From a virus, in the IMG/VR virus record IMGVR_UViG_3300025674_000056, positions 1 through 53,365 of that record: 53,365 nt of DNA; one strand, 5' to 3'. This document shows, one piece after another, positions 42,030-51,945 of this stretch (within the stretch, counting starts at the first letter, position 1; every line of letters starts with the position of its first letter). A program made the position numbers and the translations under genes. The notes under the pieces are model-generated. The model did no database searches. It saw nothing but the letters and a program-made list of their open reading frames with translations, and was not told the DNA's origin.

Positions 42030-44156
42030 TTACCTATTAGTTAGTCCAGTTTCGAACTCCATATCAGCGGCACCGCCAGTAAAGCTGCCTTGGCCGTTCA
42101 TGTAAATTCCCTCAGACATCTCAAGCTCGGCTTGCTGTAAAAGAAATGAGTCCTCCGCAATCGCCGCGATTCTTTCTAGAGTATCGTCCTGAACGACTCC
42201 TGGAACTACGCCAGAGGACAGTGCGGCGGGAGCCTCCGGGGGTGCGGGTGCGGGGGCTGGAGATGGGCTAGTGCTATCGCCTCCAAACAAGTAATCGTAG
42301 AAGGCTCCCATTGCCTTATCACCTCCAATACCTCCTGCGACGGCACCTACTCCCGTTCCAACTCCAGGGGCAACAGCGGTGCCTAGCGCACCTCCCCCGA
42401 TAGATCCGCCAAAAGCTCCCGCAGCACGGAACAAGCCGCGACCAAGACTACCGTCTTCCATCATCATCTCTTCAATTATGGGCAGCCCAGCACTGAGAAC
42501 GGGAACTCCTTTTAGATTTCTCATGGCAAAGCTTCCTGCTCTGCCAAGTTGTTTACCTGCGAAATCTTTTGCCCCGCCCAAGATGCGACCTGCGCCGCTA
42601 GTGAAGTTAGAGATACCTCCACCAATAAAGTTCTTTGCAGATGTAAACCCTCGACCGATAGAGCTTCCCATACGCGAGAATACGCCAGGCTTTTTCGGTC
42701 CAATGAAGCCGCCACCTTTGCCAAAAAGTCCCTTGAGCCCGCTGCCCATCCCTCTAATCATACCTCCGAGCGGGTTCAAGACGTTCGTAAGCATGCCAGC
42801 AAACAAGGCAGCAGTAAACGCCTTAAGACCTCTAACTGCCTCCATGGCACTAGAGCCCACAGTCTGTAGAGGAATATCAATGTCTGCGAACTTATCCAGG
42901 AAACCACCAAACTTTTCCCTGATCTCCTCGGCGGTAGGCATACCTTCACGGAAGGCTTCGGCGGTCGCTCCGATCGCGTCTATGTAAGACGGCGTAGCCG
43001 CCATCGCCATGTTAAAGTCCTTTAGAACCGTAGCAGCCTCAAGAGAAGCGCCAGTAACATTTTTCTGCGCGGTATCAAGCTCTTCTGCCGTCATCTTCTG
43101 GAAATTAAACATTTCCGCGAGAGGCGTGCCAGACCCAGCAAGTAAGTCGGCTGTTTGGAAGCTTTCTAGGGAGAACATGTCTCCGAGCATTTGCTGTAGT
43201 TGCTGAGAAAGCTGCTGTCCGGTAATTGCGTCTTGCCCAAGAATTTCCGTCTGGCCCATCGTGGCGATTGCGCCAACTGCCTCGGTCAGGAATTTCTCCA
43301 TCTGTCCCGCATCTCGAACATCAGTAGGCGCTTCAATACCTAACCTGCCTGCGACAGCAGGCATGTTCAGAAGAGCTTCAGGGCTAGTTAGAGCGCGAAT
43401 TAGATTAGCAGTACCCGCGCCTGGAGCCGCTGCCTCTGCGCCCGCAACGAACCTTTGAATCATGTTCGCAGTTTCGGAGCCAAACAGAGCAGTCTGCTGT
43501 CTCGTGGTCTTAGTGAAAGCATTAACCGCTTCAATAATTGAATCGGCCAGAATACCGTTTGACGACGCTAATCCTATGATATCGTTTCCAAACTCAATAG
43601 ACGCTTGAGATGACCTACCTAAAACGTTTGTTTGCGTAGCTAAAAATGTGTTTGTCGTCGCTAGGCTGTTGCCAAGACCCTGAGAGGTTGCAAGGAACTT
43701 CTGCGCTGTCTGGCCCGAATTCTTGATATTGGCGCGAATCGCGTCATCCAAGATCTTTGCCGTCTGCGTGTAGCTGATTCCGAACTTTCTAAATGTGCTG
43801 TTAACATCAGGAAGCCCAGTAACGATCTTACCCTGCTCATTGATCGTTTTGGTAGCTAGAAGTTGAGTTCGGTTTGTCGCGGCTGTGGAGCGCGCTAGAG
43901 TATTGCCAAACGTAATTGCATCGCTCGTAGCCTTTTGAAGTTGGCCTGCGGCGATATCAAAAGTCTTTCCAATACCCTTCGAAAGCCCGCCTTTAATACC
44001 TGCAACAATCTTCGAGCCTAGACCTACACCTCCAGCGCCGCCTCCACCACCACCGCTGTCCTTAGGTCCCGCTTTGGCTAATGCAGACTCAATGCTTTTG
44101 GCTAGATCATTATTGAGATTCTCAAAGAATTCTCTATCTGAGTTACTTAAATTCAT
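42030..44156 (-). CDS. Tape measure protein, gp29-like
   Basis: A 708-aa, largely helical protein that sets tail length. It has a Gly-rich stretch near residue 36-50, long helical regions full of Ala, Gln and Asn (about residues 60-430), and a C-terminal Gly/Ala region (FGGSIGGGALGTAVAPGVGT, near residues 600-620) like the membrane-active ends of tape measures. At about 1.5 angstrom per residue it would give a tail of roughly 100 nm. It is close in size to T4 gp29 (590 aa) and lies just before the gp48/54-type gene. The start overlaps the preceding stop (ATGA). No lytic domain seen. Confidence 0.8.
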   Translation of the reverse strand: MNLSNSDREFFENLNNDLAKSIESALAKAGPKDSGGGGGGAGGVGLGSKIVAGIKGGLSKGIGKTFDIAAGQLQKATSDAITFGNTLARSTAATNRTQLLATKTINEQGKIVTGLPDVNSTFRKFGISYTQTAKILDDAIRANIKNSGQTAQKFLATSQGLGNSLATTNTFLATQTNVLGRSSQASIEFGNDIIGLASSNGILADSIIEAVNAFTKTTRQQTALFGSETANMIQRFVAGAEAAAPGAGTANLIRALTSPEALLNMPAVAGRLGIEAPTDVRDAGQMEKFLTEAVGAIATMGQTEILGQDAITGQQLSQQLQQMLGDMFSLESFQTADLLAGSGTPLAEMFNFQKMTAEELDTAQKNVTGASLEAATVLKDFNMAMAATPSYIDAIGATAEAFREGMPTAEEIREKFGGFLDKFADIDIPLQTVGSSAMEAVRGLKAFTAALFAGMLTNVLNPLGGMIRGMGSGLKGLFGKGGGFIGPKKPGVFSRMGSSIGRGFTSAKNFIGGGISNFTSGAGRILGGAKDFAGKQLGRAGSFAMRNLKGVPVLSAGLPIIEEMMMEDGSLGRGLFRAAGAFGGSIGGGALGTAVAPGVGTGVGAVAGGIGGDKAMGAFYDYLFGGDSTSPSPAPAPAPPEAPAALSSGVVPGVVQDDTLERIAAIAEDSFLLQQAELEMSEGIYMNGQGSFTGGAADMEFETGLTNR

Positions 44157-44710: not shown

Positions 44711-45013
44711 ATGACCTTGAACCTAGACGACAAGATGGAGCTTGAAGAGTTCCTAGAACAAGTGAACTATGCACTATCGCTGGAGTTCAAGGAAAAGTGG
44801 AGACATAGGTATTCTGAAGCTTTTATCAATATCTTCCAGTCTCAGCTTATTGGAGCTTTCGAAGATCAGAAACCAATAAAAATCTCTCAGCTAGAACATG
44901 CCTTTACCAATAAGAATGGTTACGACATTGTTCTAGTGAGAGATTTTTTCAGAACAATAGATATTGCTTTATATTACCCTATTGTTTACCGAGACTCTTC
45001 TTTTTTTCAATAG
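44711..45013 (+). CDS. Small plus-strand protein, unknown
   Basis: A 100-aa, helical, acidic/aromatic protein beginning MTLNLDDKMELEEFLEQVNY. It stands alone on the plus strand between minus-strand genes and ends inside the 3' end of the nuclease gene (35-base convergent overlap). No good Shine-Dalgarno precedes the ATG. Coding is supported by the clear start just after the divergent gap and by the lack of any minus-strand gene over most of it. In T4 the uvsY gene lies near uvsW and gp25/26, but I see no similarity to UvsY. Probably an early or middle gene like the other plus-strand genes here. Confidence 0.7.
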   Translation: MTLNLDDKMELEEFLEQVNYALSLEFKEKWRHRYSEAFINIFQSQLIGAFEDQKPIKISQLEHAFTNKNGYDIVLVRDFFRTIDIALYYPIVYRDSSFFQ

Positions 45014-47625: not shown

Positions 47626-47817
47626 CTAGCGTTTACCGCTGGATTGAATCTTTTTCAAGTCCTCTTTTTGCTTCTCATTTTCCTGTTGAAGGATCTCTAA
47701 GAAGGCTAGGCGCTCTAAAAAAGTTAGCTGACAGACATCCCTGAAACTGAACCCGATATGCTTTACTAGAACATATGCTTGGTGTTCGAGTCCCTGGTCA
47801 CCCCACTGCGCTGTCAA
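47626..47817 (-). CDS. 63-codon ORF, likely frameshift extension of gp26
   Basis: A 63-codon frame with no ATG: its first in-frame start candidate is TTG at 47817, overlapping the gp26 stop, with no good ribosome-binding site. The peptide (TAQWGDQGLEHQAYVLVKHI, then a helical segment ending QQENEKQKEDLKKIQ) is helical and short. Its frame stays open upstream through the seven-T run in gp26, and a -1 slip there gives a direct in-frame fusion of about 342 residues. The layout matches gpG/gpGT-type tail assembly chaperones and may be the counterpart of T4 gp51 downstream of gp26. Independent TTG initiation is the alternative. Confidence 0.8.
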   Translation of the reverse strand: MTAQWGDQGLEHQAYVLVKHIGFSFRDVCQLTFLERLAFLEILQQENEKQKEDLKKIQSSGKR

Positions 47818-48653
47818 CTCGCGGTAAAAAAATTGGATGTGAGTTCGATCGGCACCCTGTTCTTAGTTCCGCATGCGTTGCAAGAGTAGAAGAAGTGGTT
47901 CTCCATTCCGTACTTAGGACTGAAGATGTGAGTTCTAATCATGTCCACATCTCGAACGGTAGTTTTCTGAATGAAGGCTTCGATGACCGTCTTGTCGCTC
48001 ACACCTGCGATATTATGAATGAACATATGCATGTTCTCGTGCATCTTATCAATCGTATCGACAAGATGCATATCCTGAGTTCGTGGAAGCTTGATCTGGA
48101 TCTCTTGCTGCGAATCGGGAAGAACAAAACGCATATGCTCTTCTTTAAGGGGCGTGGTTTTGAGAGTGTTGATCGAAAGGTCTAGCTTACTTCTAGTCCC
48201 ACAGTTCTCACAGTCGTGCTCCAGGGTGTAGGTATCACCGTATGAAATTCCTCGAAGACGGTACAGTACATAAAGCTTATCCTCGGGCGTCATCTCCGAA
48301 ACGTCAATACCTCGAATACAGTTACGAAGAAGTTTCTCTAGAGTGCCCTCTGCATCGCGGCTTCCTTGTGTTGATTTAAGCATGCGCTCATCATCAAATG
48401 TGATAGGACGAATATCTACGACCTTTTGGGCTTCGGGGTATAGGAGACCTTGCGAAGGTAGCTCCACCTGAATCCACCGCATCTTATCGGTGACGTTCTG
48501 AAGAAGCTTCTCAAGAATCTCTTCAGTGTGGCGATCGGCGGGCATAGCTTCCGCCATAACCGCAGCCTTTTGAGCCACTTCGGCACTCTCAGGGGCGTTA
48601 GAAGCCTGAGCTTGGTGATGTTTTACAAGGTCAACAATTGATTCGTCACTCAT
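47814..48653 (-). CDS. 26: Baseplate hub/tail assembly chaperone, gp26-like
   Basis: The 279-aa product matches the gp26 family of T4-like phages. The signature RWIQVELPSQGLLYPEAQKV (residues 59-78) and VVDIRPITFDDERML (residues 78-92) are clear. It also has a zinc-ribbon pair: CENC (148-151) and CNAC (258-261). T4 gp26 is 208 aa and, with gp51, is thought to act in baseplate hub/tail assembly. It ends in a slippery seven-T run just before the stop (see the site at 47826-47832). The start is divergent from uvsW across 17 bases, with no clear Shine-Dalgarno. The pairing of gp26 with uvsW follows the T4 order. Confidence 0.9.
   Translation of the reverse strand: MSDESIVDLVKHHQAQASNAPESAEVAQKAAVMAEAMPADRHTEEILEKLLQNVTDKMRWIQVELPSQGLLYPEAQKVVDIRPITFDDERMLKSTQGSRDAEGTLEKLLRNCIRGIDVSEMTPEDKLYVLYRLRGISYGDTYTLEHDCENCGTRSKLDLSINTLKTTPLKEEHMRFVLPDSQQEIQIKLPRTQDMHLVDTIDKMHENMHMFIHNIAGVSDKTVIEAFIQKTTVRDVDMIRTHIFSPKYGMENHFFYSCNACGTKNRVPIELTSNFFTAS
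47826..47832 (-). other. Slippery run of seven T: probable -1 frameshift site
   Basis: On the minus strand the gp26 codons read AAT TTT TTT ACC GCG AGT TGA. The seven T form T-TTT-TTT, an X-XXY-YYZ slippery heptamer in the correct phase. After a -1 slip the ribosome reads TAC CGC GAG TTG, directly entering the 63-codon ORF, which lacks an ATG. No downstream RNA structure was evaluated. Resembles the G/GT frameshifts of tail chaperones. Confidence 0.7.
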
Positions 48654-50026: not shown

Positions 50027-50253
50027 TTAAAAACAAAGACGATTTTATTAAGTCCCTTAGCAGACTTCGCCCCGAAGACGAAGATGATCTTAAGTTCGCG
50101 ATTGACCGTGTACAAAAAATCATCGACTCTTCTAGCGTATCAGAAGAGTCGATGAAAGAATTATATAATACTGTTCAGCTACTGCTAAGTGTGTATGGTA
50201 AATTTGTTACATACAATATCTTGTGGTTGAAACAGGGGTATATGGAAGATTAA
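50023..50253 (+). CDS. uvsW.1: Small helical protein, uvsW.1 position
   Basis: A 76-aa, acidic, all-helical protein immediately after uvsW with an ATGA overlap. In T4, uvsW is followed by a helical protein of the same size, uvsW.1 (76 aa), so position, length and character agree, though sequence similarity was not checked. It is likely co-translated with the helicase and may modulate it. Its stop overlaps the stop of the convergent 559-aa gene in TTAA. Confidence 0.75.
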   Translation: MIKNKDDFIKSLSRLRPEDEDDLKFAIDRVQKIIDSSSVSEESMKELYNTVQLLLSVYGKFVTYNILWLKQGYMED

Positions 50254-51929
50254 GCTTCTTCGTCGGGCGACTCGGGGTCATACTCTTCTTCTTCCTTAGA
50301 AAGGGCTTCCCAATCAATATCCTTAAACAGACCTTCTAACTCTTTCATTAGATCGGTCATATCTTCGTCCCCAAGACCCATTCCCGTATCGGCTTCAGGC
50401 TCTTGAGGCTCTTCAGCCTCGTCGGTGCGGGTTTTATCATCTACGTCGTCTTCTTTTTCCATCTTCTTCTTTCCAACCTTCTTCTTACCCATCGCCTTGC
50501 CGATTGCATTACGGCGGTTCTTTAGGTACTTGTCTGTGGAATCGGAATCCCCATCGTTATCCATGTCTGCGTCACCTTTACCAACGGGATCTAGAGAGTC
50601 ATCCGTGGTGGCACCGTCGTCATCGGTCGGGTTTTTGGCCTTTTTCTTGTCCTTTGCTTCAAGAATACTCTCTACCACGGTATCGAGATCGACAGCCTTG
50701 AAAAGCTCTCCGTCAAGCTCAACTTCAGCCGCCTGGAAGACTTCGAAGATAAAGTCGTTTACGTCGAGGGTTTGAATACCTCCCTTCTTGCGAAGAGTTT
50801 TGGAGAAAGCTTCGAACACATCACGGACAACACTATCTTTCTCGGAAGTAGCAGCGAGCGCCTCGAAGAGAACGGATTGAGCCTTGGCAAGGTTGCTGAA
50901 GGTAGGGACGAACTTTAGGTTCTGGACGTTGATGCCGTAAGACTCGTTAAGCTCGGAGAGGATGTCCTGCTTGATGGGCTTCTTGAACTCGAAGATGCGA
51001 GCCACGTACTCGCGAATGTCCTTCTGGGAGATGTTGGCTACATCAGACGCCTCGTAGATTGAACCGAAGACCGTCTTGATATCAGCCTTGGAAGCAAGTG
51101 CAAGGTACGGGACATCAGCAATCGCAGCGTGAAGAGCTTCGAGAACAACGTCGTCCTCGTTGTAGATGCAGGAAGCGAGGGCAGCGATCTTGTCGTTCTT
51201 GACCCAGGACCCCGCAAAGTTCTCCTTGGACTCGTTTAGTTCGTGGCGAATAAGCTCTTGAGCGCAAACCATCTCGAATACGGTGCGTTGTGTATCGAGA
51301 GGAACTTCAATAACACTTTCTTTTACGACCTCATCCCAACCACGACGGGGAGTGTTGAAGGCGCGTCCTAGGGCATTGGACAGCTTGAGGGAGTTTACAA
51401 CGTCCTCATAAGAAAGAAGAGTATCCTTTTTTTCATTAAGATACTCCGTAACCTTGTCTTTGACCTCTTGTAATTTGGCATACTCCGCGCTCTCAAGAAT
51501 ATTCTGGGTATCACCAAATGTGGAGTTACGACGCTCAAGTTTTGCGCGAACTTCGTTTACCTGACTGCGGCTTTGGAAAGCGCCAAGCAGGGTGTCGAAG
51601 CTGGACTCGGCATCGCGATATTCGTCCTCGCGAAGGTTGCTGATAAACGAGCGAACGCTCTCATTCACTCGGGTATCGACGCTTTCGTCCGAGTAGAGCA
51701 CTGCCGCATCGTTGACCGACATGTCCTGTAATGAAATGTTGCCGCGCTCGTCAAAGGCGGCAACACAATCTACCATCAGGTTGTTTTCAGTCAGGAAGGA
51801 GACTTTAGAGGTCCGTGCGTCGTAGTTAAAGAGAACCATGTTCTCACGAACGACACGGCTTAAATAATTCATTGCCATGTTGATTTTGGCAATAGATTGA
51901 TCGCGTGTGGAGAAAGTGTTTGTAACCAT
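50250..51929 (-). CDS. Large acidic head/core-type protein with EF-hand-like loop
   Basis: A protein of 559 aa from ATG 51929 (a TTG three codons upstream is less likely). It is helical and acidic. The C-terminal 130 residues are low complexity, with Lys-rich and Asp/Glu-rich blocks (GKKKVGKKKMEKEDD; ending DPESPDEEA). At about residues 453-468 there is a calcium-loop-like DADMDNDGDSDSTDKYLKNR (EF-hand/dockerin pattern). Motifs such as SILEA and LNE fit possible gp21 cleavage sites. It follows the portal gene, where T4 carries core gene 67, so an internal head or core protein is plausible. I do not know the family with certainty. A leader with an imperfect hairpin precedes it. Confidence 0.8.
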   Translation of the reverse strand: MVTNTFSTRDQSIAKINMAMNYLSRVVRENMVLFNYDARTSKVSFLTENNLMVDCVAAFDERGNISLQDMSVNDAAVLYSDESVDTRVNESVRSFISNLREDEYRDAESSFDTLLGAFQSRSQVNEVRAKLERRNSTFGDTQNILESAEYAKLQEVKDKVTEYLNEKKDTLLSYEDVVNSLKLSNALGRAFNTPRRGWDEVVKESVIEVPLDTQRTVFEMVCAQELIRHELNESKENFAGSWVKNDKIAALASCIYNEDDVVLEALHAAIADVPYLALASKADIKTVFGSIYEASDVANISQKDIREYVARIFEFKKPIKQDILSELNESYGINVQNLKFVPTFSNLAKAQSVLFEALAATSEKDSVVRDVFEAFSKTLRKKGGIQTLDVNDFIFEVFQAAEVELDGELFKAVDLDTVVESILEAKDKKKAKNPTDDDGATTDDSLDPVGKGDADMDNDGDSDSTDKYLKNRRNAIGKAMGKKKVGKKKMEKEDDVDDKTRTDEAEEPQEPEADTGMGLGDEDMTDLMKELEGLFKDIDWEALSKEEEEYDPESPDEEA

Positions 51930-51945
51930 AATATACAAAAGCCCT

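Follow-up and report, generated by a model that had tools for sequence, protein, structure and literature searches.

A predicted -1 frameshift would extend a T4 gp26-like probable tail assembly chaperone with a hidden C-terminal domain in a clade of uncultured phages

We examined a 53,365-nucleotide stretch of viral DNA (IMG/VR record IMGVR_UViG_3300025674_000056, positions 1 to 53,365; hereafter, the window), whose minus strand carries a homolog of T4 gp26 that overlaps a second reading frame at its 3' end. The features that concern us are:

47814..48653, minus strand: gp26-like ORF of 279 amino acids, family PF12322 (T4_baseplate), the putative short form of a tail assembly chaperone (TAC-N)
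47826..47832, minus strand: slippery heptamer T TTT TTT, read directly within the 0-frame codons AAT TTT TTT, four codons before the stop
47814..47825, minus strand: dual-coding overlap, ACC GCG AGT TGA in the 0 frame and TAC CGC GAG TTG in the -1 frame
47629..47826, minus strand: -1 frame of 66 codons lacking an ATG and ending at the stop TAG (47628-47626), the putative C-terminal part TAC-C (T domain)
42030..44156, minus strand: candidate tape measure protein of 708 amino acids, with a weak match to PHROG 167 (E=1.3e-5)

A profile search placed the gp26-like protein in PF12322 with E=3.7e-20 and 73.0 bits, exceeding the curated cut-off of 24.5, and it also matches PHROG 150, 'baseplate hub' (E=6.1e-25). 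Its AlphaFold2 model (279 amino acids, pLDDT 84.8) resembled the baseplate hub protein of phage SP-15 when compared by Foldseek with viral PF12322 models (E=2.8e-17); against the PDB the top match was 3klu (B. subtilis YqbN), with E=0.42, below significance. The protein contains zinc-ribbon-like pairs of cysteines. Several genes separate gp26 from the candidate tape measure gene, which lies approximately 3.5 kb downstream and whose product would be the expected client of a chaperone. In SP-15 and LIS04 the gp26 homolog sits exactly between the tail tube and tape measure genes, which is the classical place for a chaperone. Elsewhere in the window (50250-51938, minus strand), a 562-residue protein contains a dockerin-like, Asp-rich stretch (GDADMDNDGDSDSTDKYLKNRR) and matches several PHROG families, mostly of unknown function.

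The gp26 ORF ends ATC GAA CTC ACA TCC AAT TTT TTT ACC GCG AGT TGA, so that the seven T at 47832-47826 fall in the X XXY YYZ phase of the gp26 frame, as the original prediction had described. A slip of one base backwards would continue as TAC CGC GAG TTG, the first T of TAC being the heptamer's last base, and the frame entered in this way translates without interruption as YRELTAQWGDQGLEHQAYVLVKHIGFSFRDVCQLTFLERLAFLEILQQENEKQKEDLKKIQSSGKR. The predicted fusion of 276 plus 66 residues thus comes to 342, the frame and length originally put forward. The overlap at 47814..47825 encodes the conserved 'xEL' with which the T domain begins. The hidden frame contains no Met codon, its single start-like codon being TTG at 47817, and no Shine-Dalgarno-like motif was found near the gp26 stop in the window, in agreement with the earlier claim that the downstream ORF has neither an ATG nor a ribosome-binding site. 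An AlphaFold2 model of the T domain consists of three helices (pLDDT 79), and its fold matches to annotated tail chaperones were weak and non-significant.

In-phase slippery heptamers are found at 26 sites in the main ORFs of the window, and the gp26 site alone is followed by a -1 frame that runs far beyond the stop (61 codons, compared with 16 at the next best site). Shuffled sequences contain a -1 frame that stays open for 55 codons or more with P of about 0.02 per sequence. A separate 100-codon ORF without a PHROG match (44711-45013, plus strand) carries two in-phase T-rich heptamers, at codons 77 and 96; its -1 frame closes just 16 codons beyond the stop, and the occurrence is probably due to chance.

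Searching viral contigs with the gp26 protein as query returned zero matches, and relatives were instead reached with a portal protein query, which gave 80 loci. Counting the window, these gave 36 gp26 sequences whose junctions could be used, of which 31 were non-redundant, at 27-62% identity to the window gp26; a nine-member alignment was set aside as too diverse. In all 31, TTT TTY lies three sense codons ahead of the stop. The full heptamer reads T TTT TTY in 30, and G TTT TTT in the remaining one (L077). The first codon of the heptamer encodes a varying residue (Asn, Ser, Asp, His or Tyr), yet the base preceding TTT TTY is T in 30 of 31, whereas elsewhere T and C are about equally common at the end of such codons (879 T vs. 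816 C). Past the gp26 stop, every relative has 50-61 open codons in the -1 frame, against 0-32 in the +1 frame. The conserved heptamer and open -1 frame in 31 of 31 relatives support the original reading of the site as a programmed -1 frameshift.

Conservation of the encoded residues points in the same direction. Across the clade the T domain follows the consensus YSEL/LSEL...AYxLVKH..FS..DV..L...ER..., and the E-L at its start is kept in all 31 relatives. Changes in the -1 frame fall mostly at third codon positions, with a median omega of about 0.2, and by this measure its residues are under purifying selection. Since the codons for this conserved EL lie ahead of the gp26 stop or span it, translation must enter the frame upstream of that stop.

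Alternatively, the 63-codon ORF might encode a separate small protein that is translated by stop-start re-initiation at the TTG overlapping the TGA (TTGA), with no frameshift. The window does have a TTG at 47817 that overlaps the gp26 stop, and other phages suggest that a stop-start arrangement is feasible: TAATG overlaps in PP35, of the Ackermannviridae, and in Vibrio phage K364 indicate that a separate T protein is workable elsewhere, and TGATG occurs beside the slippery run in YB07 and RHph_I9. However, this TTG is missing from nearly all other relatives, which have CTG or CTA at the same position (TTA in L077), and 16 of the 31 lack any start-like codon near the junction in the -1 frame. 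No conserved junction start codon was found among the 31 non-redundant relatives, and Shine-Dalgarno-like motifs near the stop are sporadic and lacking in most. Re-initiation would also not account for the EL encoded across the stop, nor for selection that keeps T TTT TTY, a sequence of no use to a re-initiating ribosome. We consider this explanation improbable and have rejected re-initiation at TTG because the codon is not conserved. A universal slippery run and open -1 frame with no shared start codon point to a fused protein instead of one made by re-initiation. One observation named beforehand as counting against frameshifting was an ATG and ribosome-binding site in the relatives together with the absence of a slippery run; the outcome was the reverse, the slippery run being present in all 31 and no junction start codon being conserved.

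Still less probable is that RNA polymerase slips on the T run, giving some mRNAs with an altered number of U that are read through into the T domain. Although a stretch of 7-8 identical bases could allow some slippage of this kind, in roughly half of the relatives the site is T TTT TTC, a run no longer than six T, and in one it is G TTT TTT. What is kept is the ribosomal heptamer and not a long homopolymer, and the exact codon phase is conserved even though transcriptional slippage does not need it. That many relatives have only six T makes this mechanism unlikely. A single gene interrupted by a sequencing error in the homopolymer or by a genuine indel, with no recoding, can be dismissed as barely credible: T runs are indeed prone to error in some sequencing methods, but the identical layout is common to 31 distinct sequences from many metagenomes, recurs in isolates (cyanophages and Stenotrophomonas phage YB07) and persists through T runs of differing length in the same phase.

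A downstream RNA stimulator, which the original prediction had suggested, was sought by folding and alignment, and no conserved helix emerged: single-sequence folds, RNAalifold and a hand-built helix all failed to reveal a conserved stem downstream of the heptamer. The window itself gave z-scores of +0.7 for 60 nt and -2.2 for 100 nt of downstream sequence, and the clade means were about -0.8 to -1.0, compared with -0.2 for a control region. Joint folding of eight close relatives with RNAalifold found no covariation support, and the hand-built 9-bp helix was no better than shuffles, being strong only in two relatives (L018 and L020). An upstream Shine-Dalgarno-like stimulator is lacking in 28 of the 31. 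A stimulator, if there is one, is weak, lineage-specific or something other than a simple stem. The near-invariant bases right after the heptamer may be a mere consequence of dual coding.

We consider it very probable that the locus is the tail assembly chaperone gene of a T4-like phage, from which one gene would give two products through a -1 slip on T-TTT-TTT; the slippage, its efficiency and the chaperone function are all deduced from sequence. Most ribosomes would stop at 47814 and release the 279-residue TAC-N (gp26). A minority, whose P and A sites hold Phe-tRNAs paired with TTT TTT, would move back one base on T-TTT-TTT and translate 66 more codons to give the 342-residue TAC-NC, with its additional helical C-terminal (T) domain. 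On the model of lambda gpG and gpGT, many copies of TAC-N and few of TAC-NC would coat the tape measure protein, the T domain would recruit tail tube subunits, and both proteins would be expected to be missing from the finished virion.

Sites of the same type occur in known phages: T TTT TTY followed by an open -1 frame is found in BUCT-ZZ01, S-SSM7, Syn33, Melnitz-3 and phiM19. The cyanophages among these (Kyanoviridae; S-SSM7 and Syn33) are like the window in having T TTT TTC before the gp26 stop and a homologous T domain in the open -1 frame, and the T domains of the window clade and of cyanophages match in profile comparison (E=2.8e-6). The spacing differs: the window clade has three sense codons between heptamer and stop, the cyanophages a single codon (GCC or GCA). 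Public cyanophage records give the T ORF as a separate gene, and in S-SSM7 and Syn33 this short ORF is labelled gp51, 'baseplate hub assembly catalyst'. In two cyanophage loci (L089:1914-2105 and L090:1956-2093) the extension is annotated as 'gp51', its assigned start codon lying downstream of the point at which ribosomes probably enter the frame. The short 'gp51' ORFs of cyanophages and related phages make better sense as frameshift extensions, and for annotation the consequence is that both frames should be joined.

Other members of PF12322 appear to reach the T domain differently. In Listeria phage LIS04, Bacillus phage SP-15 and Streptococcus phage GXN1, the T ORF overlaps the gp26-family gene in the +1 (or -2) frame, and all three share NCC CGA TTY shortly before the stop (L001:2986-3931, L002:2971-3910, L003:2980-3997), which suggests a +1 slip at this sequence. 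The ATG that overlaps the gp26 stop in Dickeya phage PP35 and Vibrio phage K364 (L093:1138-2090, L094:952-1955) suggests coupled translation of a separate T protein and not a fusion. Genes 51 and 26 of phage RB43 lie in tandem on one strand with an overlap of a few bases (L101:101-914), whereas they are divergent in T4. We tentatively propose, as a possibility somewhat less likely than not, that T4-like phages arrive at the short and long PF12322 proteins by four routes, of which the +1 switch, and the tandem 51-26 of RB43 as a split relic, may be undescribed:

Route 1: -1 slip on T TTT TTY, in the window clade and cyanophages
Route 2: slip into the +1 frame near NCC CGA TTY, in SP-15, LIS04 and GXN1
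Route 3: ATG overlapping the stop, in Ackermannviridae and Vibrio K364
Route 4: two paralogous genes, 26 and 51 of T4, adjacent in RB43

Lambda G/GT and other siphovirus and myovirus tail assembly chaperones, among them that of Pseudomonas phage Adele with its GTTTTT motif (PMC12846349), are produced by -1 programmed frameshifting. Family searches detected no sequence relation between lambda G and the window gp26. Unlike lambda G/GT, the window gp26 has Cys pairs and is separated by its ~3.5 kb from the candidate tape measure gene, rather than lying directly upstream of it.

The closer comparison is with T4. PF12322 covers both T4 gp26 (208 aa) and T4 gp51 (249 aa), the latter being a paralog of gp26 with about 48 extra C-terminal residues. 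T4 and the window share not only the family but also, on the reading proposed here, the pairing of a short protein with a longer one that carries an additional C-terminal domain, and the last ~45 residues of gp51 are homologous to that domain in the window: hhalign aligned the T domain with the gp51 C-terminus (residues ~208-249) with E=3e-5 for the window clade alone and E=3.5e-9 for a combined profile of window-clade and cyanophage T domains. From this homology and the shared PF12322 family we infer that T4 gp26 is the counterpart of TAC-N and gp51 that of TAC-NC. These results strengthen the originally suggested link to lambda G/GT and T4 gp26/gp51, but not its novelty, as the link has already been published. 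The reading of these proteins in T4-like phages as tail assembly chaperones is that of Vladimirov, Gautam & Davidson (2022, Virology 566:9-15), as presented in PMC10885494 and PMC12846349. Some T4-like phages have one short and one fused gene in place of frameshifting (PMC10885494), and poly-T -1 signals are known in T4-like TAC-N genes (PMC12846349). Because such frameshifting is already known in tailed phages, some T4-like groups among them, the window is a well-supported further example of an established mechanism; with it, a large uncultured clade joins those T4-like phages that appear to use frameshifting for their tail assembly chaperone. It also supports the view that T4 gp26 and gp51, long called a baseplate hub subunit and an assembly catalyst, are a split tail assembly chaperone, for which T4 has separate genes 26 and 51, whereas the window would obtain both forms from one gene with a -1 slippery site.
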